Below are positions 215-53,600 of a stretch of 64,000 nucleotides of DNA, piece after piece. Source of the stretch: Chondrosia reniformis (taxonomy: Eukaryota > Porifera > Demospongiae > Chondrillida > Chondrillidae); contig OX359199.1 in assembly GCA_947172415.1 (NCBI GenBank), forward strand, positions 1,824,001 through 1,888,000, given 5' to 3'. The translations under genes and the position numbers were made by a program. Numbering within the stretch: position 1 is the stretch's first letter; each line of letters begins with the position of its first letter. The notes beneath the pieces were generated by a model. The model had not been told where the DNA came from. It saw only the letters and a program-made list of their open reading frames with translations, and did no database searches.

Positions 215-3200
215 TATAAATGAACCATGTCGTGGTTGTGTTGGAGCCTACAGTTTTAGGCACTTTTTGCCCCTAACTAACAATGCCAGTGCATTTTCAG
301 TTAGTTGAAATGCACCATATGTACATGTAGTGATGGGCAGCTTTGATTTATTCAATACTGAATAACTCTTTACAATAGTATTGCAGCATTACTAAATATT
401 GAATATACGTACGTATACTGAAAATAACTAACTACGTATGTATACCATCCAGCCTTATGTGTACATGTACATACGTATATAAATTTGTATTATATAAAAT
501 CATTGAAGGGCAAGTTAAACTACATATCTTTTCTTAGGTGGCTGTAAATGAACGTATCATTTCAAGTAACTTGGATGCTCCCGAAGGAGGAACTGATGGT
601 CTTCTTCAAGCTGTTGTCTGCGATGATGTAAGCATGAATACAGTTTTCAATATGCTACATCTAGATGGCACAAATTACTTACTTCTAACTGCACCAAAAT
701 TACCTTTTAAGTGGTTCATCTTAAGATTTTAAGGCATCTACAGATGCAGTTGTTTTTTTCTTCTCTGGGTGGAATTCCCAGATACAGCTGTCTGGCCCAG
801 TGGAATAAAAGGAGAAAGAGAAGACTCTTGTATACTCATCAAAAGATCTCAGGCTTTTTAAGTTATTACAGAATACAGAATAGGCATAGCATGTAGGAAA
901 ATGGTGTATTAAATTATTCATTATGAAAGTGAACCTTAGGCCAACACAGTAGGAGGTGATGTTTAGTGATGGAGTGACTTCTGCCATTGAACTGTCAAAT
1001 TTAATATGTGTATATACGTACTTTCTTTGTATTTCCTACAGATAGTAGGATGGAGACCTGACCCAGCCAGGAGGCTGCTGGTCTACCTTACAGATGCTGG
1101 ATTTCACTTTGGAGCAGATGGCAAGGTACTGAAACCTCTTACAGTATGTATGTAGGTATATATATAAACTGACCCTGTATATACAGTATGTAGGTACATA
1201 TACAGTACACCCTCTATATACAGTATGTAGGTACATATACAGTACACCCTCTATATACAGTATGTAGGTACATATACAGTACACCCTCTGTATACAGTAT
1301 GTAGGTACATATACAGTACACCCTCTATATACAGTATGTAGGTACATATACAGTACACCCTCTATATACAGTATGTAGGTATACAATGTATATATCTGGG
1401 TATATATTCACATAATGAGGTTGTCATGCAAAGTCACCTAACAGTCTGTCCATTGAGTTCATTATGTCTATACAGTGGGTAACCTCACAAGTTAAAGTTT
1501 ACAGAAATGCCAAGTTTCAGGTCTATCAGGGTCTCACCACTCAATTGTATAAATTCCTTGCTTGACACTCCCTAATTAGAATTAGTAGGTGTAGGTGTAT
1601 ATGTGTACACATAATATACAAATATGGTCACATTGTAATGTGGGTTAGACAGGTATGCTGCTAATGCTATGAATATCATTAGTAACTCAAAGGTCATGCT
1701 ACTTATGGTGGTGGAGTTAAATAGAGGAAGTTAAGCCATAGTAAGTTAGGACCTGATGTCATTGAGTGAGAAACTCCTCCAATAATAGTGAAGTTAACTC
1801 TGTACTCCACCACAATGACAAAAACAACCATAGATGTCAAGAGCACACTTAAATAGTGACAGCTTAACAATATAGTCGACAGCATGGCATGGTAAACCTG
1901 TATAATAGTCACCTGAATAGAGTAGTTGCCTCCAAATTATGATCAGCTCTTAAAATCCCAGCAAAAGTAGTATAATGTACCTATAATGTAGCCACCTCTC
2001 TAATAAGGCCAGATTCAGCTGGCCCCAAGCTGACCACATTAGCCTATGCTACAGTATAGTAGAAGCCTAAGTACATATAATGTATTATGTAAGGATCAAG
2101 AGTGTCACAGATGTACGTACGTATCTATGATGTACATGTCTGACCCAGTGGAGAAGAAGATGAAAGCAGAGAAAAGAAGGAAGAAAAGACTCCTGTATCT
2201 TCATCCAAAGCTCTCTTCAGGTTTAGTTCCCCTATAGGCTCTTTTACAGAATAGGCATAGCATGTAGGAAAATGGTATCTTAGATTTTTCATACATATTT
2301 ACTGTTAGTTGTTTGCCTTGATTACAAACACGCATTAACAGTAGCACCTGCCCTTACTGTTTCACTAGATTGGTGGTGCAGTTCACCCTCACGATGGTCA
2401 GTGTCATTTGAACTTGGCAGAGGAAGGATATCATGAATACGCTCAAGACTCTCTGAGACTTGTAAGTTGAAATATTGACTTTGATCACAAACAGATTGTG
2501 GAATGAAGGGAGGTGAATTATGATGACATACGTACATTGGAGCCATCTACCTACCATCGACAGCTGTTTAACGAGGGGATTGGATAATAATTGCCTATTG
2601 TGCACCTAATATGATTTAGAGGAGCTTCAGCAACACCAATTTGTACCTTTAAATACTGTAAATCCCTTTATTTAAGCGGAACTAAAAGTTAGTGAAACTG
2701 GATTTTACCCCTACATAGTGGAATTTAATATTAGCGACTTGCAAAATGCATGGAAGTTTTGTTAGTTAATTGCAGTAATAAATAATTACAGTAGTACTCT
2801 ATTTAGTAGTAATACTATATTTAGCAAACTCTAATTTTAGTGGTAAATGTCAAATCGCTAATATAGCTAAATTTAAAAGCACGCTAATAATAAGGGATTT
2901 ACAGTAGATCAATACTTACAAATACATTATGGGATATATGTTCCAATAAAGTAACTTTCTTTCACCAAGTGTAGTGAAAGGAACATGCATACATACGTAT
3001 ATCAGATTGCTGTTATTACATTATACATACTGTATATACGTACTTATATTCATTAGCTACGTATGCTTAGTATCCACAGGAATGAGGCTTTCAGCCTCGT
3101 TATAATTATACTATATGTATGTGCAGATGTCAATACATTTACTATGTTACCTGTAGGATTATCCCTCGGTGGCAATGGTTAACTCTGTAATGTTGGAGCG

Positions 3201-6200
3201 TGGAGTATCTCCAGTGTTTCTAGTCACCTCAAGACGGCAGAGCTTGTACAGAGTGAGTTGCTGTATCTCCTCAGCTCTGGTAGATATGTATGCTCTGTGC
3301 TCGAATACTAGGAACCAGTATCATCTATTTGTGTGTAGACCTTGAGAAGCGTTTTAGACAATGCCGTTGTTGGAACACTCAGCAGTGATTCAAGTAACTT
3401 GGTGGATGCCCTGAGAAAAGCATACAATGTTAGTTACAGTGATGCTTGTATACAATACCATGTTGTTTACTTCCCATCATTCTAGTAAACATATATACCA
3501 TGTTGTTTACTTCCCATCAAACTAGTAAACATAAATACCATGTTGTTTACTTCCCATCATACTAGTAAACATATATACCATGTTGTTTACTTCCCATCAA
3601 ACTAGTAAACATAAATACCATGTTGTTTACTTCCAATCAAACTAGTAAACATAAATATAGAATGGACTAGCATACTTGTAACTTTCCTTGACCCAGGAAC
3701 TGGTGTCCACTATAAGATTGATAGCAGATCCAATTCCTGGTGTTAGTGTTGAGTTCAGTGCAAAAAGTTGTGGTAGAGGAATAACTTTGCCCAATGGTGT
3801 GTGTTCTAATTTGGAGGTGGGAAATGAAGTAAGTTTGTTGTTATGTACAATATATACGTATGTATGTACATGTATGTACGTATATGCTTGTGACTTTTAG
3901 AAAAATCAGTTTTTGGCTCCATAATATCTGTAGGTAACAATTACAGCACAAATAACTGTGACTGAATGCACACCAGAACTAATTAGTGGAACAAGGTGAG
4001 CAAGAAGACTGAATGTGTCTCTTCCTAATTTGGGCTTCCTTAGCTAACCACTCTTTGTCTTCTGAAATCAGAGATTTGGAATGGTGTAGCATTCCTCTTT
4101 AGTCACACCTATCACCAGTTACATACCCCCAGGAACAGAATATGTAACCATGACATATTGCTCTATTTGTAGAGTACAGTATCAATGATTGGATTATATA
4201 TACTACACCTTTATGTAAATACTCTAATGCAATTGGACATGCAATTACTTATAATTTGCAAGTAATAGGATACTTGCATTGGGTCTTTCTATTGTGGTTG
4301 ACCTGCAGACATCTGTCTTATTTTAAATACTAACCTGTATGTCTGGAAACTCCCTGTTACACTTGGAGAGAAATGCGTAGGTACAGTAGGTAGTTTTGAT
4401 GAGTTATTGGTTAGTTTTGTACTGTAAGTGTAGAAAGGATACAACTCTATGTTTATGTGAAACATTACCATGCATCATAGGAATGACCATATAAGGTAAT
4501 TTTTTTCTTTTAGTATGTGTATATACATATATAGAAAGGTACCTACGTATATTAATTTTATAAGTACTTCCTTTTTCATAAATACTTGCTCAGTGATAAT
4601 TTTATAAACACTTCCTTTTATAACTACGTAGTCTTACCATAAGAAACAGCCTTTTTGGGCAGGTAAAAGTGAACATTGAAGGCATCTGTAATTGTCCCTG
4701 TGAAATGAATGTGGTAAGTTAGGAATCAACTCATTTCAAGTAGAACACACAGACCTTGCGTCACACTGATGGTTTACTGATAGCCATAGTGACAAAGCAT
4801 GTGATAGGCAAAACATTTGACAATTTATTGACTTGTTTAATAAGCACTAAATTCCAGAATCATGTCAAAGAATTTCCATATAGTCATAATGATGTATATA
4901 GATAATATGCATACATGCCCACAATAAATGAAAAATCTAAGATACCATTTTCCTACATGCTATATGCCTATTCTGTAAAAAGAGCCTATAGGGGAACTAA
5001 ACCTAAAGAGAGCTTTAGATGAAGATACAGGAGTCTTTTCTTCCTTCTTTTCCCTTCTTTCATCTTCTTCTCCACTGGGTCAGACAGCCGTTTCTGGGAA
5101 TTCCACCCTTCATCAGTGATCCTGGGAGTCTTTGTCTTTTTCTTTATCTTGATCTTCTGTGAATCCTTGGCTCACTATGCTAAATCTAGGGGCCTTATAT
5201 ACACTATTTTGGCGCCAAAAGTTAAATAAGGTGCCTATTGCATAACTGCAAACTTTTAGCCTGAAAACTGGAGAAGTCACTACATATTCTGGAATACCTA
5301 ATTAGTTGTGAAATAAAGACACCATAGGTAAATGTAATGTGTACAGCTACAATTTGGCATACAATGACTGCGAATTACAGTTAGGCATACAATGACTTCG
5401 AGTTACTGTATGATGAAGGAAGTCATCCTGGTACATGATAACACTTTGAAACTTTGAATGTCTATATTTAGATGGAGAATAGCACTTTCTGTTCCAATGA
5501 AGGTAACCTGACCTGTGGACTCTGTATCTGTAACGAAGGAAGGTAAGCCGTTACGCACTAGTTAGTCAAGTTCCTTTTTAGTATAACTAACTTTAGAGTG
5601 ACTATACAGATTTTCCACCTGTATTATGACAAGGAACAATACTAATATAACTATAACATACATAAGCCTTCAGAGGGACTATAAAGATTTTCCACCTGTA
5701 TTATGACAAGGAACAATACTGTTTTTTCAAAGGCACACATTCCAAAATTCTGCCCACATAGTTAAGGGTCATGTACATATACCTCTTCTTGGGTACAAAT
5801 ATTATCTACTTTCCTACGTGGTAAATGTACCTGTTTAGGAGGGCCTGCTTAATATTATTTATTCATTTGTTTGTTAATTTTAAGAGATGAATGTACTGTA
5901 TGAATATCACTTCATTATACAGTATGTTTGTGTATTCATCTTGATTGACCAATCTGTATATAACAACAGGTTGGGTGACACTTGTGAGTGTAATGCTGCA
6001 GGAAAGGTGACTGATGGAGATCAAGGCGTTTTGAGATGCAGGTTAGCAGCACATACAACTACCTTTACAATTCAGATTGACAGTAAATGTATAGTAATTA
6101 GATATTTCAACAAGAAGGCTCCATCAGCTAGAGTTGCTGGTCTCCTGGGTGTCCCGACTAATTACATATGTACGTAGTTAAAGAAGAAAAAACAAACACA

Positions 6201-9200
6201 CAACGTTATTCTGGAGTTACTTCAACAGAGTCCAGAAATGACAGTGACCCCAATGAGTTATGACACCTGGATAACCATCAACCATTCTCTGTTTCCCCAA
6301 TAGGTTGGGACGTGGAGATAAAGAGTGTTCAGGCCTTGGGGTTGCTGGAGAGTGTAACTGTGGAGTGTGCACATGTTTTGAGAATGTCATACCTGATGTA
6401 AGTCTCTTACCTACAATAAATGTACACATGAAAGAGTAGGGGATATTTGAACATTGGACTGGAAGATGGTTTATTGAGCATCACTTGATCAGCAACATAA
6501 ATTTAGTGATGTTAAATATTCATTTTTATGTCACCCCTGGTGCCACTGGCTTTGTAACCTCTCCTCGTCACTGCTGATGAAGACCTCCGCATTGAAACGT
6601 CCAGTAAACTCATTGAATTTATGTTGTTGATGCTCAACAAATCATTATTGGATATTGTTATGATCATTGTGATCGTGAGATCATATTGAAAATGAAATGC
6701 ATAACTGTGAATTGGATTTGATTCGCCTTATTGTCATCAGGGACTTATTACTATTATATAATCTAAATACATAGGACTAATTATATATTTACGTATACTG
6801 AATAAGTCTCATGTTTTTAAGTTTGCATTCACAGATACCTGGTTCTAAATACTTTGGTGAAGTCTGCGAATGCAACAATTTTGAATGCGGTAGAGACAGT
6901 AGAGGTTTATTGTGCAGTGATAATGGTCAGTGTGGATGTAATCGAACCTGTATCTGCAATGAAGGATTCAGTGGTGATATCTGTGAATGCAGACCAGAGA
7001 CAGAATGTGTCAACATAAGGAACAATGTAAGTATACTCCCAATTTAGTTATTTGAATTCCTAAATACCGGATATCCAGAATCTTCTACATACATGCACTT
7101 GTAATTTCAAAAGGTCATCTACATACTTCTAAAGGAGTAATCTTGCATGTGATGGTTGCCAGTATAGTGTATTCATACATAAAATAGATTCTCATTATGT
7201 AAACACAAGTTCATAAACACATGAAAAATCTAAGATACCATTTTCCTATATGCTATGCCTATTCTGTAAAAGAGCCTATAGGGGAACTAAACCTGAAGAG
7301 AGCTTTGGATGAAGCCAGGAGTCTTTTCTTCCTTCTTTTCCCTTCTTTCATCTTCTTCTCCACTGGGTCTTATTATGTATTAATATTATGTAAATTAGCA
7401 TTAGATACTGCATCACTGATAGTCTCACATTTAAAAACACTTAGGATGAACTACCTTGTACGGATATGGAGCATGGAATATGTGATTGTGGCATATGCAG
7501 GTGCAATGAAGGTTACATTGGAGACTACTGTGAAACATGTACCACCTCTGAGGTTAGCATATTCTATTCCGTCTCCTTTTGATTAGGTTTCTGTTGAATG
7601 TGGCTATTATTAATTACTTTTCTAATTTATATATATACAAAGGACATAAATCTAACACCTTAGAAGACCGTATGTGCATACATGAATAATAGTATCAATG
7701 GATATCGTTTTTAATTACAATGAATTAAGAGCTAATATACAACATACAGATAAAAATGCATGTACAGTACGTGCCACAGAAAGGTAACGATAATCTCGTT
7801 TAGCAGTTATTTTTAACGTTTAACGTTCCTCGCTTAACAAATCTTTTAATGGTTAGCCTCTTCGAGAATGTTGGTTAACCTTGTACCGTATATCAGGAAT
7901 CGATTGCAAGGGTAGTGGATTGCGATTTATCAAAATTACAGATAAAGTAAACATTGTGGTTAAAGAATATGGGATAAAGCTTAAGATGTACGGACTAGTA
8001 AATGGAATTACTGAGGTGTCAAATTTATTCGTATTGGTAAGATTTCAGATATGGGCAAAATTTGCAATCTCACTTTCTCTAGACACATGTATTCAATTCC
8101 CGATATACGGTATATAACTACTTATGGAAAAATGATACCTCTTTCATAAGAAAAGTCACTCCAATAACAATTTGTGACAAGTTTGCTTTTTATTTAGACC
8201 TGCGGAGCTGAAGATTGCCAACGATTTGAGCAGTGTCTCAGTTGTTTCTCAGTTGTAGATGGTTCAGTTAGGCGCGGTAATGAAGAATGTCTGGCCAGTT
8301 GCTCAAGTATAAATGCTACCATTGCTGCTGAGGGCATTTCCAGCCAACCAGACAATACCTTTGAATGCATCAGTGTGACAGCTGGAGAGCTGTGCAATGA
8401 TATAACATATCATGTTAGGCCTGACCCGAGTGGATCTTTTGACATCTTTGTAGAGAATACTCCAAGAACTGGTAAGTACAAAGCTAAACCTTCATTAGGA
8501 AAGTAGAGCTGATTTACGTAATCCTATGTACTTTATGTATTCATACCCACATGAGATACTGTTTTTTTTTCTCTTTTCCTTATTCCAGTTTGTCAGACTC
8601 CTATTCCCGCCTGGTTAATAGCTGTTCCCATAGTAGTTGGACTCCTTGTCTTAGGAATTTTAGCTATCATTATTGCCAAGCTTATCCTCTTCTTGCTGGT
8701 AAGTACTTGTATGCTGAAGTGACACTACCTATAGGTTACTATATAAGAAGTTTAAGTTTAATGTAAGAAATGTGTATTCATGAAACTTTGTAAGCAAAAA
8801 AGACAGTTTTCTCTCATATGTACATACGTGGTTGTGTATTTTTAAACAAAATTTCCATTTTACACTTAACATAATACATTTCCCATTTACCTCCTTAAAC
8901 ATATGTACGTATGACCTACAGTTGCCACTATGCACCATAATATACAGATTATTTGTCACCTCCTTTTGAGATCCTTTCAACAAATTAGCTGACAATATGT
9001 TCTAGTCTTTTGTGGAATCGTCTTTCTATTAATATCTCTGCAATTAATAACTGGGACAAAAATATAGTGCTATATGTATATCCCATTTTTAGACAGTTGC
9101 ATTTCAAATTATTAATGCTACATCTGTCTTGATTACAGGAGCGATATGAATACAAACAGTTTAAAAATGAAGTGGCCAAAAGCCAGTTTTCTCAAGTAAG

Positions 9201-12816: not shown

Positions 12817-15800
12817 CTAATTGTCCTTCCTAGAATCTGAAATGTTGTCCTCTGTTACCAGTGGCAGGCTTGCAGGAGTCTTCTCTTCTCTGATAAACCA
12901 AAGAATGCTCATACATAAGCATATAAATGGTACAGCCAGACACCACTTGAGCTCAGCTTCAAAATGGAGATTAAACCTAGAATTGTACATAAAAAGAACT
13001 GACTCTTTTAACCTTTCGGATGATTTGTAAATTTCTTGCTAAACTAATATATATATGATACATTTTATAAAGTGATTTTTACATAATATCAAGAGCTAAA
13101 TATAAGGACAACATAGACATTAGGAATATATGTATGTAAATATCTAGGTGGATCAGGTAAATTAATATTTTATGTAAACAGGTTAGCAATTAGTGTATAG
13201 TCTGTCTCCATAATACAGCAATATCTTTGAGATTGTTCTTCATTAGTCTTTAGAGCATCTAGACCTCAGGGTCAAACATTTGATTATCAAGAAACAAACT
13301 GCATCTCTAGATGCTCAAGAGACTAAAGATGAACCATAGAAGAAATCCCTATCATCTAATATACCCAATACTTTGTTTAAACATGGTGGTATGATCAATC
13401 AGTTAAGATACCTTTAATACATATAAGGTAACATAATAAAATGATGCTTTGTACATACTTACCTCATGTTATAATAAAATTCATCACATTCATATCTTGG
13501 ACTGCAGACTTTCAAGTGAACCTGTCCAGATATGGGAATCGAGGGAGATTTGATGTCCAGTTTAACAGAGGCTTCCCTAACTTGTGTACCAATGCTGATG
13601 TACTGACGATGCAGTTTGATGGCTCTACCCATTGATAACTTGAATAAAGAAAAAGAGAATACCAGCATGAATAATCTAACACACCATCTCCCAACATGCT
13701 ACATCTACTTTAGAGTGAAGGCCTATAGGGAACTAAACCTAGTGAAATGATGATAGTTATAATCAGAGTAGTAATAGCTGGTTAGTATTAAAGTGCAAAC
13801 ATATCACAATATAATATTGTTCTGTACAAGCGAAAGTATTGGGATTGACAGACGAATAATATAGTGCAAGATTACAACCTATACCTTCTCTTATAGCAAA
13901 GCTGAAACTACAAGTGATCCATGATGAAAACAATATGCATTATACTTTCACCAGTCAAAGCTGCAGGCTGACTGAAGCATTTGTACAATGATTGAAAATG
14001 GAGCTAAGTACACATTGAATATATGTACCATTTTATAATAATTATAATTATACTTGCAGTACATCTTTTTAATATATTATTACACAATAGTGTGCATTTT
14101 TTTCATTGTGAAGACATCAGTCACATTATAGCCTCCATCTTCTCTAATTATGAAATATGAAACTAGGGTACTCTGTACTAATGAATAAAGTAACAGGAAA
14201 ATAAAACCAATCAATCATAATCAATCTTAAACAGGGAGGAACAGGAATGAGGCAATTGCTGGGAACTGAGCCAAGGACAGCTGGTTTGGACCACCACACA
14301 AACAAACAAAACAAACATACAAACAAACCTCCACAAGATATATTTCTGGAATTTGGCCAAAACCTCCATATGTGATTTCAAATTCTATTTCAAAGTGTCT
14401 TCCAGTAATTTCTATTGGTTCAAGGTTTGGTGAAATTGGTGAAATAGTCAACTACAAGTAGAGAATTCAATTAAAAATTGCACTAATCTCAAAGTGCACA
14501 ATTGTTTTCCTACTAAGGGTGCATCTCAAGTGATGTCAGATTAGGAAATACAGCCACAATAGTAATCACTCCATGTGTACACCACTAATTAATAGCTGTT
14601 GTCTGTTGTCATACTTTGGAAAAACTAAATGTGTTATAGATCGAATTGTTTTGAAATTTGCTAGCTACTGTCTGGAAGTACATGTACCTTTCTGTCCATA
14701 AATATACATTTTCAGACAAAGTTGGTAACCTTTATTATAAGATCTTAATTAGTATATAAGGCTTCAATTGATCCAACAAAGTATTTATGTAGATACACAA
14801 AGTTCCATACTTCTCTCAACCATCAAAATGTACAAAGTAATATTTTGACATACGTATGCACACTTGGAGTAATCATCAACAAAAGTCTAATTCCAATTAG
14901 GCAAACTTCTGTCTAATCCATTACTAATCATGCTTTCAAGGAGTGGGTATAGAGTCAACTGCATTATTTTGAGCTACTGTACGTATGCACATGAATAATC
15001 TAATATACCATTTTCCTACATGCTATGCCTACTCTGTAAAAAAGCCTATAGGTGGAGAGAGAGCTTTGGATGAAGATAGAGGTCCTAGAGACTTTCCTTT
15101 CTTCTTCTTCTCCACTGGGCCAGACAGCTGTTTCTGGGAATTCCATCCTTCATCAGTGACCCTGGGAATCTTTGTCTTTTCTTGATGTTGATCTTTTCTG
15201 AATCCTTGGCTCTCTATGCTAAATCTAGGGGTCATGTCATTCTTAGTTACAGGTCTTTGGTGTTGTTGTATTAAAGGGTCTACTTACTGAATTGCTCTTA
15301 TGAGTAAATCCGCTACCAACATGAACTTCAGAGGGCCAAATGTTTGATCTACAGCAACAAAAATCTCTGTGGTAAGTGATGTGTTCATAAATGCCTACAC
15401 CCACTAAAATACCTAAATCCTGTAGTAAAGGTGATGTTGTCTAGCAGTAATTCTTAACGTTCTCTTATGTGAGGGCACTATTTAGGTCATACTTGGATAA
15501 ACAGGAAAAAATGTGACAAACATTTCATTTGTAGATATATATGATGGTTACCCTGGTGACAGATGATTAGATTGGTAAATGTTTTGTCAACACTCTACCT
15601 GTGTTTCTGATCAATCTCTATCAGGCTACCATGAAAACTGTAACACACAAGGGTCCCATCTTGAAGTGACACCAAATATTCAATACCTACAATGAAAGGG
15701 CATGCAGTGTAAAGTACTGATTTAAGGCATATATAGCCAGGCATTATCAACAATTAATGAGCCTCTATTTGACCATGGCTAAAGATGTTAACCCTCTACA

Positions 15801-18800
15801 GTGAAGTACATTGAAGACTCACAAAACAGAACAAATAGCGAATTTTAAGATCTAAAAGCAAAACGTAAGGCTTTGATTATCATCATTAATTAAACTCTTT
15901 CTGTTAGATGAATTTCAGTTCTACCCATTAGCTCATTGTGCTCCTCAGGAGACACGAGTGGGTGATGAGGAAACCCATTATGATGATGATATTTTGGAAT
16001 ACATTACTAGACTACATACATACGGTACGTACAAAAATAACGTTTACATTGTGTGTGAAATGTGGTTGTACTTCGATCGAATTGGGAACGATGTTCGACC
16101 GTCTTTCGCGCCAAGTTCACACTAAAATGCATGATGAAGGGAGCGAACTTCTATGCACTTTCGATAGTACTTCGATCGAATTACGCACGAAATGGCATCG
16201 AAAATTAAACCACCTGATGATTTATACAGGTAAACAGGATTTTAAATAAAAATCAACACCCAAAACAACTGCTTTTAATACTCGAATATTTGGTTTTGAA
16301 ATTATTAACACTTCTTGAGGTGTTAATAATTTCAAAGCTAAAGCTAAAGACAAACAGGCAAACACATAGTCACTGATAATGTAAGGGTCTTACCCTTTTT
16401 GCTTGGGACTATATTTGCAGCCAAGGGGCTGACATATGATCCCCTTTCTATTTCTAAGGCCTGTTTGCATTTCTTCTTCAAATTGTAAAAATGAATGTGA
16501 GCCACAGAGCGATGACTTGGGGCAGAAGGAAGAACCTACACATACGCATACATAAACACATACTGTATATTCTGTATTATTCATTTACCATTTAATTTTA
16601 CAAGGAGTTTTATTCTGTTATTAAGAGAATCTTTCAGCAATTTGCTGTTTAGAGGACAATGACTAAATAATTATGAATGAATAATGAATTTATACAAACA
16701 TGTACGTACTTACATGATTAAGTACAATTCTTCTTTTGGATCACAAAGAATTGTATTAACAAAGCATACCAAATAATTTTTATGACGCTATGTACATACA
16801 TACATGTACTATGCATACATAAAAAGGGAGGTGATGTTTTAAACAACTTCTTGCCACTTTTAATAGGACTTTTCTCCCCTGGCCATAAAAGATACCTTGG
16901 TCACTGGGTGGGTTTAACATAACATAATACTGTTGACGGTTTTAAATTTCATAGGTACACATGCAGTTAATGGACCAATACATGTACTGTACATACCATA
17001 TATTTTTAATATATGAAACACTTGTTGGTCTGACTCTCAGAAAGGTAGCCAAAGGAGTTCTATGTAAACCATTTATATGCTTAATGGAAGTGTAGAGATG
17101 ATTTAGAATTGACTAAAATGATTGCAAATAAAAAAGTGATTTAATCAACTATAGGATAAGTATAGCTTTGTTTTTTGAAGTGCTTCATGGAAGCCTTTTA
17201 AATAAAGCTTATTCCATGCCAAGCTGCCTAACAAAGAATACATCTTCATATAATATAGGATCCCTTCTAAGGCAGTGGTTGATGGAGTTATAGCTGGTAC
17301 ACTAAACAGAGGCTTGGTCTAGAAGAGTGGTGATGAATTGTGAGTGCATTTGTAACATTACAAGGAGAAAATGTTGCCCAGATCATATTGTTTGCATAAC
17401 TAGCTGAACATCAAATGTAATTGGAGATGGAGTGACCTAGAAGGAGCTGCAGTAATCGGAAGATGAAAGAACAGTAGGAGTGGACTGTAGTTAAGGAATG
17501 AGCCAACACATTCATCTGTAGAGAGAATAATACACTGGGTGCTCTTGGTGATAGAGGTACGAAGATTGATCATTTCAGGCTTCAAAAATTGCACTGTCAG
17601 GTGTTAGGTCAGCCATTTTGCCCAAATACAGCATGCAGTGATATAATATTGTTGCTTTAAAGAGACTCTGCTACAGTTACCAATGTATTTTATAAACTCT
17701 GATGAATTAAATGGTTGTCACTCTTCTGGAACACAGACCACTATATCTAAAACTAACTTTATGCAGATAGATTTACCACTGATTAAAAATACACTAATTA
17801 GTGTGAATGGCAACTACTGTAATTACTTTGTAGTTAATGTAAGAGGGAAAAGATGAATGGAACATACACAAGAAAGACAACTCTCAAGTGGTGCCACAAA
17901 TAGTCAAGGTCAAGACACATCTACCTACCTATATATAGTATCAGATCCTTCAAATATTATACCCTAGGATGCAGAACACTAGAACTAAGGTACATCGTAG
18001 GTACATAAAGAGTAGAGCAACTTCACAGTCTAACTATAGACTCCCAATGTACTATGTTATGTGTATAGAAAGTCTGTGATCTTACTACCAGTAACACCAG
18101 AACTACTATATTCTAGATATACACATGAATTGAATGTCTCTGAACTCACACTATAAAAAAGGCAGCGGCCATAACCACCACAGTGGTGACACTTACCCAC
18201 CACTGCTAAATTACTACTGGTGCATATATGCATATTGAAGTAATTAAGAAATCTGTACATTGAATATCATACAATTGTTGTTAATAAGTAGCTAAAGTTT
18301 AATGGAGGTGTAGAGATGATTTAGAATTGACTAAAATGATCGCAAATAAAACATATTAATTCCAGGATAAATTTAAAGCCTTAAAGGAGTATGCAGGCCT
18401 TTTAAATTAAAGTTTATTCCATGCCAAACCGCCTAACAAAGAATACATCTTATAATATAGGGTCTCTTCTAAGCCAGGGTTGGTGGAGTTATAGACTAAA
18501 CAGTGGGGTTTACAAGAGTCGTGATAAATTGTGAGTGGATTGTTAACATTACAGGAGAAAATGTTGTTCATTGACGTGTTAGGACCTGAATGTTTGCAAA
18601 ATGCAGTTACAACATAAGCTGAGCATCAAATATGACTGATAAGATAGATGTGCTAGTGTTGGAGGCAGAATGACCTAGAAATGAACGGCAGCAATTGGAA
18701 GAATGTAGAGCAGACTGTAAGGAGTCAGCCAACACATTCTTCTGTCACTCTTCTTAGCCACCGGCCACTATTGAAACAATGTAGATTCTATGACTTTTTC

Positions 18801-24800: not shown

Positions 24801-27800
24801 CACCAACCTAAATAGGACAGACCAAGAGGGAATGGTAGCCACTGAGGTACAGACAAATATTGACTGAATAGTAAGAGTAATTCCCAAGGGACTAGTTCAA
24901 AGAGTATCTATCAGTCATGACACAAATCATAAATGAGGGAACATAAAAATTACATTATGTTTCAAGGCCAATCTGATGTAGCCACTATGTTTTAATAAAA
25001 AGATGTTTTTATAAAAAAGAGAAGAATTTGAAAACAACAGTAGCTAATTAAAGGGTTCTACCATTGCAGCAATACTGTCAAACTGACATCTAAGTATTGG
25101 CTATACTAACTGAAACAAGAAGGATCAATAAATTGTTTGATAATAGTTGTGGTTAATTAACACTTTGATTGTTAACGTAAATGTACTAGATACCCACCCA
25201 TAATAGATATTGTCAAAGTAGTAACTGAGAGACAGGACCATTTCATTTTCCAAACCATCTCCGTTTGTGTCTGTAATGACTGGTGTTCCCAGGACATGAG
25301 GGTCCACCCACACTATATTACTGTCTTCTCGGTCCACACCGGAGGGCCTCTCTGCATCTGTGTGTTTGGAGTACAGGATGTCTGTACGCTTGCCAAACTT
25401 CTCTACGTAATCCTGAGGTTTCTTACTATTGTAAGGCTTTGTAGATTGACCCTATAGGATGATAAGGGGCCAATGAGTGCGTTTGTGATAAAATAAGGAT
25501 TTCTTCTAACTACATCAAACTTATCTGTTGGATAGTTCATCTTATAACTTTTTAAGCATCTAGAGATGCAATACAGTAAATAATTCGTTAGACATTTCGA
25601 ATCCAGGGTGCTGCAGAGGACCCCTTTGGGGTCGAAACTTCTGACAAATATTACCAAACTGGACCTTTAGATGCTTAAATAGTCAAAAGATGAACCGTCC
25701 AAAAGAGTGAGTCTATTTTGTGACTAAATATGTTTATATGTTTGTATGTATACATACAGTATGTATACTGTACATCTACAGTTACATACGTACTTATATC
25801 TATATACGTAGTATACAAACATAGCCCTTTTCTCGTAGAAGAAATGTAGTATGTAGGATAATGGTGTTTATTGTGTAATTACTCATATATACACAGTATG
25901 TATGTATATACATGTACAGATGTACATACAGTATGCTTACAGCACATGTACATACGTACAAATATAAAAAACTATCACTTGTTACATACGTATACGTATA
26001 TGAAAAGGGGAGTTTATTGCACTTGAGCCTGTGCTAGGCTATTGTTGCAAATAATAAACAACACTGGATAATTACACCAACCAACCAAGTGACAATCGTC
26101 TACTTGACTGGGGGACCGAAGTCCTATTTGTAGCAACCAATGGGAGGGACTGGGAGGTCATCACTGGTTGCTACAAATAGGACTTTGGTCCCCCAGCCAA
26201 GTAGACGATTGTCACTTGGTTGGTTGGCGTAATTATCCAGGGGTGTTTATTATTTGTATACGTACATATATATGTATGTACAATACAAAATATAACATAT
26301 ATAATATAGGACCTTATACAACTGCAGTTGTACATATGTAACTCAGAAGGGTCAAGTAGGATTTACAAAACTGTGCAGGAATCAACACCACAACCTAAAG
26401 CATTAAATGAAGTCTCTAAGCTTTGCACAACTCTAACTTCTGTCTTACCATGCTCAGTTGTTGTTCATCTCCAGTAATCTTCATTTGCTGCCTGATTTTC
26501 TCAGCAATCTTCTTCTGCTCTTCTTCATCCATCAAGTACCACTTTCTGTCCACTTTTATTGGCGATAACTATAGAGACACAAACAAGCAATGTTTTATCA
26601 CATTTATAGGGCATCTATAGGAGTTACAGAAGAAGACAAAGACTCCCAGGGTCAGGGATGAAGGGAGAAATTCCCAGAGACAGCTGTCTGGCCCAGTGGA
26701 GAATAAAAGAAGTAGAAGGAGAAAACTCTTGTATCCTCATCCAAAGCTCTCACTAGATTTAGTTCCCTATAGGCCTTTTACTCTAAAGAAGATGTAGCAT
26801 GTTAAATAATGGTTTGTTTTGTAGATTATTCATCTAATGGAGGCCCCGGCAATCACTGGTTTCTAAACAAGATATGTCCATCACCTGGTCTGTCATGATC
26901 TTATTACTGAAAAAGCTGCAAAAGTGCATCTACATTTGATTAACTATTCTTACACAGTATTCCAACTTCCTACAGGGAGTTCTGGCAGACGTTTGCTACT
27001 GTAAATACAGTGGAACTGATACTAGCTATTATCCTGATAATACAGACCACTTTAATCCATGATCCATTATCTCGTTGACTAATAAAGCAACTATTACAAA
27101 CACCCAAGAGGCATCAAATAGAGTTTATAGTGTCTTTAAGTTAGTCAAAATGTGGTCCGGCATTTCCCGTCTTACAGTTAAAAAGTCAAAATTGTCCTTT
27201 TTTAGTTGTTCATCACATTTCTCATCCATTCTCCCTTTGGAATTGTCAAAAGAATTTGAAAGCCAAAAGGTATTGTTGGAGAGGAAAGCAAACCTATAAC
27301 TTAAACTATTAAGCCAATAAGAAAGTAATAATGGGATAGTAATGATATGAAAGTCTCAATTGATATTTCTCAATAATCTAACAACCTCCACAATTCCATT
27401 TATTCTTTTTTCCCGTCAATACTGGAATATGGCTAACTGAATATGTACTGATTTGGGCAAATATGGTGAAATATTGTTATAATCATACTTTGGCAGGACT
27501 TCTTACCTCACGTTTAACAGTGACACTACAGTAATACAACAAATACATACGTATATACATCAAAGAAAACATGAAGTCGTAACAATCATTTTCATTTTCA
27601 GGTCACAGGAATTGCTACTAACAATTACTTGCATTGAATATAATATTTGGTAAACTAGTGGAAAATCAGGCCCGTATGCAGCTCCAAGAATGGGGGATTC
27701 TCTGTTCTCAAAGTGGAACTCATCATATAGATTTACATGTAGCATGTGATGTTTTCTCATTTGCTACATGTGAAGTGTTTCAACTACATTGGATTAATAA

Positions 27801-35130: not shown

Positions 35131-38100
35131 ATGGCAACACCTCAAAGACAACTGTCGAGAAGTAGGCCGATGAAGGCCACTGAACCGTTTGGCTCTGGCA
35201 CAGTCAACACTGGTAAACAATCTGGTTACTGGACACAGGGATCTCCTCTCTGCGGAGTTCCACTTTCAAAGAAGACAGAGTTCAGAGAGAGAAGGACCAG
35301 CCCCATAACACAAGCCACAGGTCTTCCATCACCCATAGGTTGGTCATTAATTATAGTTGGACAAATTAGAACTTGGGCTAACTGGATTATACCCTATTCT
35401 GATGTAATGAATTGTTACTCTATTCTGATGTAATGATTTCTAAGTATTGTAGGTACATACGTATGTCCAAGGGTAACGTGTATTGATGTACATATTTCAT
35501 ATGTGATTAGTACCCTCTGGCTTTTGTTTGAATTATTGCTGACCAATATTGCCTCTTTCCCACATTGCTGTTCCTATAATTATGGTTGGTTTTACAAAAT
35601 ATACACATTTTAAGTAGCAAGTGTCTTAAAACGTGTTCACACCTCAAGGTGGGTGGTTAATGCAATATGTATTGAACAGTGGACCAACATGTTTTGAAGT
35701 GTAACTTGTGTATTTGGCTTCAAAGAATTTATCCATGTCAAAATATGATACAAGACTGTATAAATAGTTATGAGATTAGGAGCTTATGCAAATAGAAGTC
35801 TATCCATTTACTGTACTTTGACAAGTAATGCATCATCTCCCATGTTCAGTAATTCATATGATGTTAAATAAGTCATGGAATTTTGAAAAGTGAAAATGCC
35901 AATTACATCCTAGAGTACAGTGTGTCCGAATCCTTAGATGTGTTATTGTATTGTAATCATGAGGTCTGAGGGAAATCAGTTCATTTAAAAATTCAAGTCT
36001 AGGACACTGTGGGTCTCAGAGATTGTTCCTCTGAGAAAACAAACTTATTGAACTTTCAAAGTGTCAAATCATTAGACTCTGGCTTGCTCCATTCATTCAC
36101 TTATCCTGAGGCATGGGACAGGCTGTGCTTAATTGGCAGAACTAAAGTCCATGGGAATGGGAACCAGAGTTTTCCCTTTGCCTCTTGAAGATGCTTGAGC
36201 CACAGACTGCTTCATCCTACGTACTTGGGACTTATCAGAATGGATGGAAACATGAGTGACCTTACTGCAAATATATAAGTACTCTGGCAAGTTAAGAAAG
36301 CTTGTGGTTTTCCACTTTAGCAGATAAGGGAATAGCCAAATTTGTGACTGATCATTGCAGTGTAAAATGTAATAAAGGTGATCTAACACTAGCTTTGAAT
36401 GTCAAAATCACTCTAAACTTTTAGGGGCTGCCTGTGGTAGCCCCTATATTGTTTTCAATTCTACTTCCAACTCACAAACAGATGTATAATACAGGTTCAT
36501 ATGTAATTATAATTATTATGTATTTGAAATTGGCAGCATTCGAGAAGCTTAAGTTAACTAAGTCTATTTCCTTTTTTTCTACCATTATTTATAATTTTGA
36601 GAATACCTAAGGCACTAGATATATACAGCAGTTCAACAAAGTGGCCAAGTAATTCAAGTGCAGAGGGGGAGCCCCATGAGGATTTTAACTCAAATTCTTA
36701 TTTAGTATACTTCAGTATCCATATTGGCTAGTTATTGTACAAAACCAGTGATAGTCTCTTCAATTGTTATTGTCCATGAGATCACTATATATGGAATCTT
36801 GCTTGGTTTGTATGTGCAATGTTGAACATTAATCTCATGATATGGGAAAATGCAAATCTAACACAAACAATTATTATAATGTCGTACATAACCAAAGATG
36901 TTGATCATAAAACCAGTTTTCTGAAATGATAATCAGTAAACACAAACAACAGGAAGAACCGAAACTAATTTTAAAATGGGAATGGGAACCCAGGACAGCT
37001 GGCTATAACCACAGTGCTCTGCAACTGAATAAATTGCCCCAGCAATGCTCCATTCATGCATAAGGTGTCTAAAGCTTCACTTTCTAGACCATTGGCAGTA
37101 GAGTATACACATGAGCTAGTATACATTGGATGGATGTTCTATCTCCTAGCTCCTAATGTTGCTTCTCCCCTGTCTATGGGATTGCTGACACTACGTACAA
37201 TGTGTTTGTATGAAGTGTACTCATTTTTAGGTAACATTTATGAGTATTACAAGTGTATAATACACAGGAGTGTAGTAATATTAGTAAAATAAGCTAGCAA
37301 GTTACAGTATATGTTTAATAGTACTCTCCTGTAATTCTGTAATTCTGTTAATTCTCCAGAGGTGAAGGTACCCGCTATAGGTTTGGGCAGGTGCACCACT
37401 ACACCATCCCCAACCATAGCAAGCGGCTTTAATCCAAGGCGCTCCAATTCAGTTGGTGCACTAAATGAAAATGATTGGTACATGAATTCAAAGTGGTTGA
37501 AGAAGACGTTTTCAGAAAAAGCAGTTCAGGTTAGCTGCTTGTACAACCTTCTAATGCCCTACCTGTAGTGGTGGTCCAAGTGCATAATGGTATTCATATG
37601 CATCTATGATTAAATGTTAGCTGACCAGTTGTGGGAAATGGGTGATCCTGAATAGGTTTAGTGGTTAATACAGAAATAATCACATTATCACAATCATAGC
37701 TAAATGACCCACCTGTTTGTAGAAGATATATAGCTTGTGTACAGTATCAGGAATGTCTGATTTAGTCAATCCCACTTGCCTAACAGACTATTTGTATACC
37801 TGTTGTAGAATACCCACTGGAAGGACTATTTGTATACCTGTTGTAGAATACCCACTGGAAGGACTATTTGTATACCTGTTGTAGAATACCCACTGGAAGG
37901 ACTATTTATATACCTGTTGTAGAATACCCACTGGAAGGACTATTTGTATACCTGTTGTAGAATACCCACTGGAAGGACTATTTGTATACCTGTTGTAGAA
38001 TACCCACTGGAAGGACTATTTATATACCTGTTGTAGAATACCCACTGGAAGGACTATTTGTATACCTGTTGTAGAATACCTACTGGAAGGACTATTTGTA

Positions 38101-47600: not shown

Positions 47601-50600
47601 AAAAAACAGTTTACTTGGAAAAATAGGGGACCTTAAGATCAAGAGTAGATCTTAAAGTTTGGATGTCATCATCAGTAGACTCTGCATGCCATACTGATGA
47701 TTCCTAATAAGGACAAAACAACTGTCTATGGCTCACTCATCTCTTTGAGTGGCTATATAGGGTGGACTCTGGTTCCCAGTTCCAGGAATTACCTCAGGAG
47801 ACATGAGTAGGTTGGATAAGTCCGAAGTCCAATAACAATGTATGTACGTACTTGAGAGGAAGTGCAGGAAGTGTACATACGTAAGTATTCGGTGAGTTTT
47901 AATTTCAATATCAACCACACAAGTTTTATGTACGTATGTAATTCCTGCATATGTACGGTACAGGTCAAAAGAAACTTGGCGATTTTTGCATTTTTCCGCT
48001 GTTGGACAATGCCACCGTCTGCAGTTGGCCACGCAGCTGTCTGAGGGTTTTTGAGAGAGCAACTGAGGAAAGCTGCAAGTGCGGAAATTTGCGTATACGT
48101 ACGTACGTATACGTATGCGTACATGGTATATAATGACGATTACAATTCGTAGTCTTGACTTTCCCCAAATCACGCTAGCAGTTTTTCCAGGAGCTACAGT
48201 TCCTTCTTTGATACTGTTTCTTGTTACATACAATCTTTTGCCAGCTGCCCTTCCTTCGATCCATTCTACCATAATTTTGCTTGCCATCTCATTCCTAATC
48301 GCTTCTTCTAATCGCAATGATTCATAACGTCCAAATGCATGTAGGATATTACAGGATACTCATTTTATTTAATTTGCCAATCAAAACTCTACAATAAAAC
48401 ACTGAGGTCCGCCGAAGGAATCTGTGAAAATCCTCAGAATATAGGTGTTAATTTGCGAATCTATACAAATTCCGAGGATTTTCACAGATTCTTTCGGCGG
48501 ACCTCAGTGTTTTATCGTAGAGTTTTGATTGGCGATTTACGTACGTACATAAATAATATGAATAATAATGATAATGAATAATACGTATGAGTTTCCAGTA
48601 ATATACTATGCCATTAACTAAGTATCAAAGAGAAAGAATTGTGTCTCTCCATCTCCAAAGTAAAGGGTCAGCATCCAATATTTTAAAAATTATAGCAATT
48701 GAAAGAATCTATACAACAAAGCAAACTGTTTTGAATACTCTATTATTTTATTGTTGTCTACATACTTTCGTATTATTAATTCTGACGATACTTATACGTA
48801 GGTAAAGATCGAAATGCTCAACATACGTACGTATCATTTTCTTCATAGATTGCATGGCTTCCCTATCGACACCCTACGTACATACGTATTGTTCGTTTGT
48901 TTACAAACATCGCTGACGATACCCGCAGATGCTGATATGGCAAACCGCAAATGGCTGTACAGCAGTACGCAGAAAATTTGCGGATTCCCGTACAAACCCT
49001 TGCGGAAATCGCCAAGTTTCTTTTGACCTGTACCGTATGTACATACATATTATATCAATAGCATACACAAGGTACATGGTACATCAATGAATATAGGTTT
49101 CTACTGAAGACGGCAGGTTCTTGTGTATGTATACTAACCAGCAGCATGCAACGGAGTCCTCTTAATGACTGCATCATGCACAAGTGGACTGGCACCAGTT
49201 TCCAACAGGATGATGACAATATCCCTAAAATTGATTAAAATACCGTATATCAGGAATTGCATGCGTGTGTCAAAAGAATGCGAATTGCGAGTTTTGACTG
49301 TATTCGCAATCGTTTGACACATATTGATTTGACACCTCATAATTTCATATACACGTCCCGTACACCTAAGCTTTATCTCGCATTCTTTTAACCACAATGT
49401 ATACTTAAACCAGTAATTCGCAATCTTTTACTCTCGCATTCATATCCCGATATATGGTAGCTAAATATGAAGGCTGTACTACTGACATGTACACTGTAAC
49501 TATAGGAGTGAGTACACGGAATGAAATTCTTATAACTGAGCCAGAATATGTAATCTTTGAGATGGTTCATCTATAATCATGTGACTTCAGTCACTGAAGA
49601 AGACTCCCAGGGTTAAATAGTCCAATTCTCAATAAACAAATTGCATTTCTAGACGCTCAAAAGACTAAAGATGAACTGGACAGGAGTGACTAAGAAGACT
49701 AACTTGTGCCCTGCAAAGGCTGCCAGATCAAGTGGAGTCCGTCCTTTCTTGTCCTTGAGGTCAATCTGGTTCTGGTAACGATAGAGCAACTCATCCACAG
49801 CTTCAGAGTGGCCATGGTAAGCCTAGTGCACAGGACACAAGTGACATGGTAACCATACAGTGCACTGGACACAAGTGAGATGGTAAGCTATTAATTGATA
49901 GACAATTATATTTCCTCCATATCAAATACAGTCATTTATTGCACTCAGATCAGGTTTCATGGGAAGAGATGAGGAAATTCCTACTAGTTTTGTATGTTAT
50001 ATAGCCAGTTCTCCTCAGTATGATGCAATCATATCCTATTATTATGCAATTTTATCAGACTACGTAGTCAGTGGTAGTCTAACAGAAGTACATTTTCACT
50101 TGTCCCTCCCACATAATATTGTTTGGTCTCTGTTGGTCAACTAGTTTTGGTCTTAATTAGATAATCCAATAAAGTCAGTTCAGTAGTCTAAATGTGTATT
50201 AAAGTAAGAAAGTGAAAATAGTGGCAAAAGCTGTGGTAGCAGAGGTTTAGATAATTGGCTAAAACCAGTAGCCTGATATTCAGCTATTTTCACTTTCTTC
50301 TTTCTTGGCAATTTTCAATGTGTCTAGTGGTAGACGTAGAGGTGTATGTAGAGTGATTTCAATATCATCTTTAGCTTACAGCTAAGTGAAGTGGAGTAGT
50401 TTGAGGTGTGTCAAAGTTGTTGGTGGTGATGTCATCAGGGAGTCTGTCCATCAGCTGCTGAATGACCAACTTGTGACCTTTGGCGGCAGCATAATGTAGA
50501 GGGGAATACCCCTGGGAGTCCAGCTGCCCTGTTTTAGAACCATTCCTCAGAAGGTGGGTCACACAACTACGTACGTATGTAAGTAACAGACACAAAAAAT

Positions 50601-53600
50601 AAAATAGATACTTACAGACTTACAACCACTTCAACAGGACTTTAACCATATGTGCCAGTAGAAATCATAGAAATGGCCTCAGGTATTCATTGAAAAATGG
50701 CTGTCATATATATATTTTCGATGTGGTAAAAATGTATGTTTATCATACGATATTTCAATTGACCATATCTTCTTCTTAAAGAGGAGAATTTGCTACAAAA
50801 ATAATTAGTTTCTTACTTTGCATCAGCATCTGCTGCGCTGGCAAAATGCAGAGGGGTGCATCCTTTATTGTCAAACACATTCACAGCAGCACCATTGGCA
50901 ACCAGCGAAAGAATGCACTGAAACTGAGCTGTGGAAGTGGCATAGTGAAGAGGAGTGCGGCCATGTTTATCACGAGCATTGATGTCACAACCTTGGCCAA
51001 TCATGAGCTCAAGGCAATCCAAGTTTCTAAATTTACGAAAATATTAAAAAAACAAAAAAACAGTTGTTACACCAACTAATATGTGAAATGAGTGCAAGAA
51101 GACAAAAACCCAGAAACAGCTGTCTGGCCAAATGGAGAAAGGAAGAAAAGTTGGTATGAAACTGTATCCTCATTTGAAGTTATACACACTTTCCTAAATA
51201 GTCAATCTAGAGAATTAGTCTACAGTATGTTATTCGTACATTTCCTTAACCATTATATGCACACCAGCCATATATATCTACATATGTACGTATAGAGGAA
51301 ATTGGTTATTTAGATTATTCATGAGTATAGTACATGTGGAATGGCTAAGTAGTGCATTCATACCCTCCGCAGGCTGCAGCATGCAGACATGTTCTCTTAT
51401 CATTGTCAGTCTCAGAAATCAGGTTCATCTCTGAAAGAACAAAGTAATACAGAGGAGTAAGACCCTGCAATAAGTAGGATGTGTAAAATGTATGGAGGAA
51501 GACCCTGCAATAGAAGGATGTACAAACTGTATGGAGGAAGACCCTACAATAAGTATGTAGGACGTACAAACTGTATGGAGGAAGACCCTACAATAAGTAG
51601 GATGTGTAAAATGTACGTATGGAGGAAGACCCTGCAATAGTAGGATGTACAAACTGTATGGAGGAAGACCCTGTAATAAGTAGGATGTGCAAAATGTATG
51701 GAGGAAGACCCTGCAATAGTAGGATGTACAAGCTGTATGGAGGAAGACCCTGTAATAAGTAGGATGTGCAAAATGTATGAAGGAAGACCCTGCAATAGTA
51801 GGATGTACAAACTGTATGGAGGAAGACCCTGTAATAAGTAGGATGTGCAAAATGTATGGAGGAAGACCCTGCAATAGTAGGATGTACAAGCTGTATGGAG
51901 GAAGACCCTGCAATAGTAGGATGTACAAGCTGTATGGAGGAAGACCCTGTAATAAGTAGGATGTGCAAAATGTATGGAGGAAGACCCTGCAATAGTAGGA
52001 TGTACAAGCTGTATGGAGGAAGACCCTGCAATAGTAGGATGTACAAGCTGTATGGAGGAAGACCCTGTAATAAGTAGGATGTGCAAAATGTATGGAGGAA
52101 GACCCTGCAATAGTAGGATGTACAAGCTGTATGGAGGAAGACCCGGTAATAAGTAGTATGTGCAAACTGTATGGAGGAAGACCCTGCAATGGGTAGTTAC
52201 CTGGTGTGATAAGGTTCTCCACACAGTCAGCATATCCACTCAGACAGGCCATATGAATGGGCAGCATTCCATTAGCGCCACGCCTACCACACAAGAAGAG
52301 GTACGTGCTGTATACATACATATATGTACGTACATATACTGTAATATATAAATATGTATACAAATACACAAACAAGTTACAATACAATCATTGTGATTGG
52401 CCACCATCTACGTAACATAGAGAATATGTAACAGAGAGAATAGTAATAGTACTGCACAAGTGCACTGTATACATGTGTTCATATTTACTTGGTGATGTCT
52501 GCCTTGCTTGCTAGCAGCGCCTTGATGACGGAAGCCTGACCGTTGTGGGCTGCGAGGTGCAAAGCATTGTTTCCCTCCTTGTCAACTATTTCCACACGAG
52601 CACCTGTAGATACATACGTACACAGGGATTACACGTTGTCTGTTATTACCGTATACCAGGAATCGAATGCAAAGGTAGTAGATTGTGATTTATCCAAATT
52701 ACAGATACAAGTAAACTTTGTGGGAATGAGAGAAGAAGTTTAAAGTGTACGGAATTAACAAGGTGTCATATCAATGTGCATCAAAATATTGTGGATGTGT
52801 GCAAAACTTGCAAGCTTGCATTCTATAGACACACACACACATTCAATTTCTAAACAAATATTGTTATAGATAATAGGATTTCTTCTAACTATATTGATTA
52901 AACCAACTGCTTCCGTAGATGCTAAAATAGTGGAAAGATGAACCATCCAAACGATACCTACAGACACTTAATATCTACACATGTATATACGTATATTCAG
53001 GTTCATCATCATTGGTTCCTATAAGTTGGTATAAGAGGGGCTGGTGAAGCAGTACTGTACGTACGTATGTGATTGCTAGTGCACAGTTTGTCACTCACCG
53101 TGACTGATGAGGGTCTCAGTACGCAGGTAGAAGCCTCTTATGGCAGTGAGATGAAGAGGTGTCCGACCAGTGGCGTCCTGGCCATTCAGGTCCGCTCCCA
53201 TCTGGATCAGTATCTCCATGCACATGGCACCCTGGTGACACCACACAGCGTAATGCAGCGGAGTCTACCAAACCACCAATGAAACCAAAGCGATAATGAA
53301 TACAATTAGTGATACATCATATTTGGTCATACCTCTAGATTTAGTACAGAAGCCAAGGACTCACAAAAGATCAATAAAACAAAGATTCCCAGGGTCACTG
53401 ATGAAGGGTGGAATTCCCAGAAACAGCTGTCTGACCCAGTGGAGAAGAAGAAGACTCGTGTATCCTCATCCAAAGCTCTTACTAGGTTTACTTCCATATA
53501 GGTCTTATAAGTAGATGTAGCATGTTGAAATGGCGTGATACATTATATATGCACAGATGTCAACATTAGCTCAACCATCAAGAAGCCATTTGCACACTGG

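Follow-up and report, generated by a model that had tools for sequence, protein, structure and literature searches.

Features of the locus

The window analyzed here, a stretch of 64,000 nucleotides from contig OX359199.1 of the sponge Chondrosia reniformis, carries at positions 53392-53437 a hammerhead-like RNA motif that sits in a dispersed repeat of about 245 nt, termed family A. The letters at these positions agree with the original prediction, which had read them as a complete hammerhead core with six stem I pairs. The motif begins with GGGTCA (53392-53397), CTGATGA (53398-53404), A, GGG, TGGAATT, CCC and A, and ends with GAAA (53420-53423), CAGCTG, TC and TGACCC (53432-53437). Its parts are as follows:

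53392..53437, forward strand: type I hammerhead-like motif, identified from the sequence; 28.4 bits (E 2.3e-6) with model R1, no Rfam match
53392-53397 with 53432-53437: stem I, six pairs
53398-53404 and 53420-53423: catalytic core
53406-53408 with 53416-53418: stem II, GGG/CCC, three pairs behind an A.A opposition at 53405/53419
53423-53424 with 53429-53430: stem III, two pairs (A-U and C-G) with the loop AGCU

The CUGANGA and GAAA elements of a type I hammerhead are present together with U16.1 and H17, and three stems surround the core in an arrangement that is open at stem I. The sequence at stem III, ACAGCUGU, is a palindrome, and cleavage is predicted after GUC, between 53431 and 53432. 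An A-A opposition at the base of stem II, raised as a caveat when the motif was proposed, is present as well (53405/53419), and positions 10.1 and 11.1 are thus unpaired. Just upstream of the motif-bearing copy of family A lies an ankyrin repeat coding exon, at 53091-53264 and in neighboring segments on the reverse strand (Pfam PF00023, E 7.6e-10).

Recognition and folding of the motif

A descriptor that tolerates A.A has a single match in the window, the site at 53398, and none in 40 Mb of random sequence (one strand) that matches the window in dinucleotide content. The motif is also found by R1, a model built from ten canonical hammerheads of two other repeat families of the same genome, X and Y, and two further family A cores are scored by this model at 26.8 bits (15117-15162) and 19.7 bits (5077-5122). 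On both counts, the proposed core is a genuine type I hammerhead core, beyond chance. A search with Rfam, which the original prediction had named as a check, went the other way and found no hammerhead in the 64-kb window even at E <= 10. Rfam likewise found none over 53380-53450 or over ten further family A loci. A strict hammerhead pattern does not match the motif because it demands a C before GAAA.

Folded by itself, the 46-nt motif is no more stable than its shuffles (z -0.45), and its 148-nt context folds worse than shuffles (z +1.83). The lowest-energy fold of the motif keeps stems I and II and replaces stem III by a pairing of CUG with CAG. Canonical hammerheads of the same genome show this CUG-CAG pairing too, but with z values of -2.8 and -3.3.

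Copies and variation of family A

Family A had been described as a high-copy repeat, and it is indeed large, with 2,759 genome-wide matches to the 36-nt core at up to 3 mismatches and none to the reversed pattern. The accompanying figure of about 17 copies per 64 kb corresponds to 17 BLAST rows, the query included, but most of these are without the motif. At a stricter cut-off, the window holds 15 family A matches, 4 of which contain the full core; most copies in the window lack the motif mainly because they are truncated at the 5' end. Individual copies in the window are as follows:

53336..53551, forward strand: family A copy with the motif, aligned to positions 5-242 of the 245-nt probe
14989..15227, reverse strand: family A copy with its core at 15117-15162; R1 26.8 bits
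4924..5188, reverse strand: family A copy with its core at 5077-5122 and a TATATAAG box just upstream; R1 19.7 bits
29502..29663, forward strand: family A copy in which the core letters are kept and stem I and stem III pairs are broken
7219..7369, reverse strand: truncated family A copy whose first base, probe position 106, lies one base beyond the predicted cut
2137..2292, forward strand: truncated family A copy whose first base is probe position 101, four bases short of the predicted cut

Variation was followed in an alignment of 79 copies, most of them selected for their core or for likeness to the copy in the window. An intact core is present in 62 of the 79, and 10.1-11.1 is A.A in 76. 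Pair 3 of stem I is A.C in 27 of the aligned copies, where the common variant GGATCA breaks the pair. A TGGCCC wobble in the copy at 15117-15162 had been offered as covariation-like; TGGCCC gives a U-G pair there, but the change is one-sided. Within-family covariation is weak because TGGCCC is one-sided and GGATCA (27/79) breaks a stem I pair, and it was rejected, since the changes in general are mostly one-sided or pair-breaking. Across families A, X and Y, five of the six stem I pairs are changed on both sides; this between-family covariation represents three lineages, and the both-side changes are no more numerous than in shuffles (193/500).

Some copies lie close to one another. On contig C2, at 756965-757401, a piece of family A, TGGCCCAGTGGAGAA, forms a local array in which it recurs every 25 to about 150 bases (at least 8 matches). 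Family A neighbors in opposite orientation, 3-53 bases apart, occur at the loci L002, L013, L045, L050 and L058.

Family A as a probable retroposon

The copies share the end structure of a SINE-like repeat, namely a common 3' end and varying 5' truncation. This is evident from 52 matches that were not picked by the core, of which 35 extend to the 3' end and 15 extend to the 5' end. Such ends imply that copying proceeded from the 3' end of an RNA, and therefore that the hammerhead strand is the RNA (sense) strand. Target-site duplications of 4 nt or longer were found in 26 of 67 cases versus 17.2 in shuffled pairs, a weak and unconvincing excess that counts against the explanation favored below. 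With regard to an RNA polymerase III promoter, the TATA-like sequence TATATAAG stands upstream in six distinct family A copies and lies about 30 nt above the commonest start region of full-length copies (positions 18-27, 16/58). The U6 gene has a TATA-like box too. No element common to U6 and family A was seen beyond this box, and a promoter common to the two was rejected on that ground.

Retrozyme families X and Y

Retrozymes do occur in this genome, in the form of families X and Y. When the core was searched for with a free stem II, the 962 matches included canonical hammerheads with G-C at 10.1-11.1 beside those of family A. A strict canonical type I pattern gave 248 genome matches, some of which lie in tandem repeats of 352-363 bp, and Rfam Hammerhead_1 scores above its cut-off in five of nine canonical loci. 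Over the unit, the likeness between X and Y is 61-62%, and stems I and II are changed on both sides at 3 of 12 pairs. Among 100 of the 248 canonical matches listed, at least 9 tandem steps occur: four units follow one another at 359 bp, further steps measure 352-363 bp, and a single one 281 bp. The same 100 matches include at least 10 head-to-head X/Y hammerhead pairs, 67-976 bp apart (including L093, L094 and L095). As circles, both units fold better than shuffles, with z values of -6.1 for Y and -2.1 for X. X and Y fit the description of non-LTR retrozymes given in the available text of PMC7229834. Moreover, they match metazoan members of that class in their unit of 352-359 bp, tandem repeats, G+C of 0.43-0.45 and self-pairing, as far as the accessible parts of PMC7229834 and PMC7761336 describe it. 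A third class of canonical hammerhead, for example CTGATGAGCCCTGGCATTGGGCGAAACAGGTA, has a TGGCATT or TGGTATT loop and accounts for at least 10 among 100 of the 248 matches listed.

Relics of both families lie in the window:

47688..47732, forward strand: hammerhead of an X-type retrozyme, decayed, with changes at 10.1 and in the G of GAAA; R1 59.7 bits; similarity to X over 47619-47778
36068..36367, reverse strand: relic of an X-type retrozyme, 64.9% alike to the X unit over 313 columns; its decayed hammerhead (36199-36244) scores 22.2 bits with R1
26000..26256, no strand assigned: inverted Y-type retrozyme arms without a hammerhead core, from BLAST to the Y unit, L069 and L071 and from the sequence

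The relic hammerhead at 47688-47732 lies outside the original finding. It is nearly complete, and Rfam HH9 scores the relic at 47619-47778 with 14.4 bits, below the cut-off. Rfam reads the hairpin at 26000-26256 as weak microRNA-like matches (mir-4874 and mir-4041). Inverted fragments resembling the X unit occur at 15829-16007, and no hammerhead was seen there.

5' ends at the predicted cut

The predicted first base after GUC corresponds to position 105 of the family A probe. Junctions between repeat and flank were taken from 60 of the first 100 listed 3'-anchor sites and from unselected copies in the window and other loci. Of these, 89 were placed, 11 were dropped as duplicates and 78 were kept, 63 of them with the junction inside the DNA examined. 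In this core-independent sample, 7 of 63 junctions fall exactly at 105 (5/65 and 6/63 with other gap costs); by eye, L116 would raise the number to 8 and L098, which is one base off, to 9. Only 3 junctions fall at 96-104 as against 21 at 105-114, and the second commonest position is 112, with 4. Poisson estimates for 105 versus other positions range from 2.5e-4 to 1e-6, with sequence preference ignored.

The whole genome was covered by counting sites at which the three letters preceding a chosen position fail to match the repeat. Exact counts are 120 at 105 versus 16 at 104, 11 at 82, 20 at 101 and 17 at 75, where the controls at 101 and 75 are only partly fair in that their patterns exclude an ACA flank by construction. 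After collapsing same-flank neighbors within 1.2 Mb, 68 of the 100 listed matches (120 in total) remain at 105, whereas the control counts are uncollapsed. The collapsed set contains TGG in 38 cases and TGA in 30, and both forms at 105 therefore point to several source lineages. An ACA flank precedes 18 of the 68, so a match of TG to an ACATG target helps. At 82, where TGG provides a fair control for TG, none of the 11 matches has an ACA flank, and at 104 one of 16 does. With flanks starting with A removed, 28 collapsed cases remain at 105 versus 20 uncollapsed at 101. Some of these counts stem from small indels: the TGT/TCT flanks at 105 (7/68) may be of this kind, and 13 of the 17 flanks at 75 read CAC or CAG. 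On contig C2, between 2509409 and 3557119, at least 13 matches with an identical ACA flank at 105 extend over 1 Mb; these are probably one insertion spread by a larger duplication.

Does family A RNA cut itself?

Four things can be read directly from the DNA: the motif, the copy number of the family, 5' truncation combined with a common 3' end, and the clustering of 5' ends where the bond is predicted to break. They are best explained, with a probability that we put at roughly 0.6, if family A is a short non-autonomous SINE-like retroposon whose sense RNA carries a partly self-cutting type I hammerhead. Transcription would begin about 30 nt below the TATA-like box, with TATATAAG as the putative promoter, and the reverse transcriptase of another element would copy the RNA into the genome from its 3' end. 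Part of the RNA would cut itself after GUC despite A.A. The cleaved 3' fragment would still be copied, which would account for the roughly one-tenth of sampled copies whose first base is exactly the one following the cut bond. Judged from the genomic copies, cleavage of family A RNA in vivo at the predicted bond is likely.

Several findings count against such cleavage. Of 79 copies, 76 have A.A at 10.1-11.1 and 27 have A.C as pair 3 of stem I; Rfam has no match, and neither the motif (z -0.45) nor its context (z +1.83) is unusually stable. In addition, ACA flanks make up 18 of the 68 cases at 105, the comparison without A-flanks is 28 versus 20 at position 101, and the 4 junctions at 112 are as expected from stalling at stem I. 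In the available text of PMC3088659, 10.1-11.1 is the most conserved pair after A15.1-U16.1; natural U-U cases exist there, and U-U allows more cleavage than all other mispairs. The axolotl hammerhead HHR_Amex2, with U.U at the base of stem II, shows 22% cleavage in one hour in vitro according to the accessible part of PMC7229834. From the same part of that source, HHR_Amex2 resembles the family A motif in its unpaired stem II base and its two-pair stem III with a tetraloop, and differs in having U.U rather than A.A and in lying in tandem repeats. A hammerhead closed by A.A should cleave slowly but need not be inactive.

Other readings are less probable. That the motif is a chance resemblance or the remnant of a protein-coding exon is hardly credible: although the frame 53313-53501 runs open through the motif for 62 codons and Rfam has no match, the descriptor finds nothing in 40 Mb of random sequence, and canonical hammerheads of the same genome contain the identical GAAACAGCTGTC. 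Pfam has no match to the frame at E <= 1, on which ground a coding exon was rejected. The original prediction took family A itself for a retrozyme lineage, spreading through circular RNA, and this identity did not hold up. It is very unlikely, even though the intact core and palindromic short stem III recur in X and Y of the same genome and relics of both lie within the same window. In the window and in 3-kb stretches, 13 pairs of neighbors lie within 400 bp; 3 of these pairs point the same way, at unequal spacings, and no regular tandem unit in the retrozyme range of about 150-450 bp was found. The family A circle has a z of +1.5, versus -6.1 for Y and -2.1 for X, and is thus not the highly self-paired RNA unit of a retrozyme. 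Furthermore, family A has fixed ends, away from the cut site. Membership in X/Y was rejected, given that only 12-14 nt, around GAAACAGCTGTC, are in common on the same strand. Family A is an element of a different type that carries a motif of the same sort, and it is better regarded as a SINE-like retroposon with an embedded hammerhead that was probably once active. Because the stem III loop is identical (GAAACAGCTGTC), we infer that the hammerhead of family A has a common origin with the retrozymes of this genome or was acquired from them.

A stronger competitor, possible but on balance unlikely, accepts the hammerhead descent of the motif and holds that no cutting has occurred since A.A was gained. 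The motif would then be a fossil passenger, and the pile-up would result from reverse transcriptase stalling at the stem I hairpin together with TG microhomology to ACATG targets. The A.A and broken pairs of most or many copies suit this account, as do the junctions at 106-114, with 4 of them at 112, and the 18 ACA flanks among 68 at 105, which also accompany a few other junctions, for example at 82 and 101. However, stalling is expected at the base of stem I, whereas 105 lies beyond its entire 3' arm, and microhomology is opposed by the TGG control at 82 (11 matches without ACA) and by 104 (16 with one ACA). The excess at 112 may reflect stalling at stem I, which could also contribute to 105. 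Self-cutting of a SINE-like RNA remains the preferred reading.

Relation to known systems and significance

Family A can be compared with several known elements. The hammerhead repeats of schistosomes, said to have been described by Ferbeyre in 1998, are reportedly SINE-like, that is, short dispersed repeats with a hammerhead inside the transcribed unit. By description alone, family A resembles them in both features. In R2 and further non-LTR retrotransposons, an HDV-like ribozyme located at the 5' end determines where the genome-copied RNA begins. Family A is alike in that a ribozyme would set the start of such an RNA; its fold is another one, and its cut is internal, so that only a fraction of copies start there. 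Penelope-like elements carry minimal hammerheads that, in the available text of PMC7761336, are like those of family A in being dispersed, of type I and with a very short stem III. Family A, by contrast, is a short repeat that stands by itself and has a 3' end of its own. With metazoan non-LTR retrozymes, as characterized in the accessible parts of PMC7229834 and PMC7761336, family A shares a type I core, a short stem III, thousands of copies and a low G+C; it differs in having no regular tandem unit or strong self-pairing, in its fixed ends away from the cut and in its 5' truncation. An earlier report of a hammerhead in Porifera, including Amphimedon, was not found in the searchable open-access literature or in the main texts searched within it.

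Tentatively, the hammerhead of family A may have changed jobs, from making circles out of tandem units, as in retrozymes, to the in vivo 5' trimming of a SINE-like RNA, with A.A tolerated. Dozens of independent insertions beginning at the cut bond would then preserve a fossil record of the cut. These findings put retrozymes, along with a hammerhead-bearing SINE-like repeat, in a sponge genome, and by mapping the starts of truncated retroposon copies, ribozyme cleavage might be inferred purely from a genome sequence. If it is true that a hammerhead closed by A.A cuts in vivo, Rfam searches would have to reach further, and the sequence limits now accepted for this ribozyme would have to be widened.
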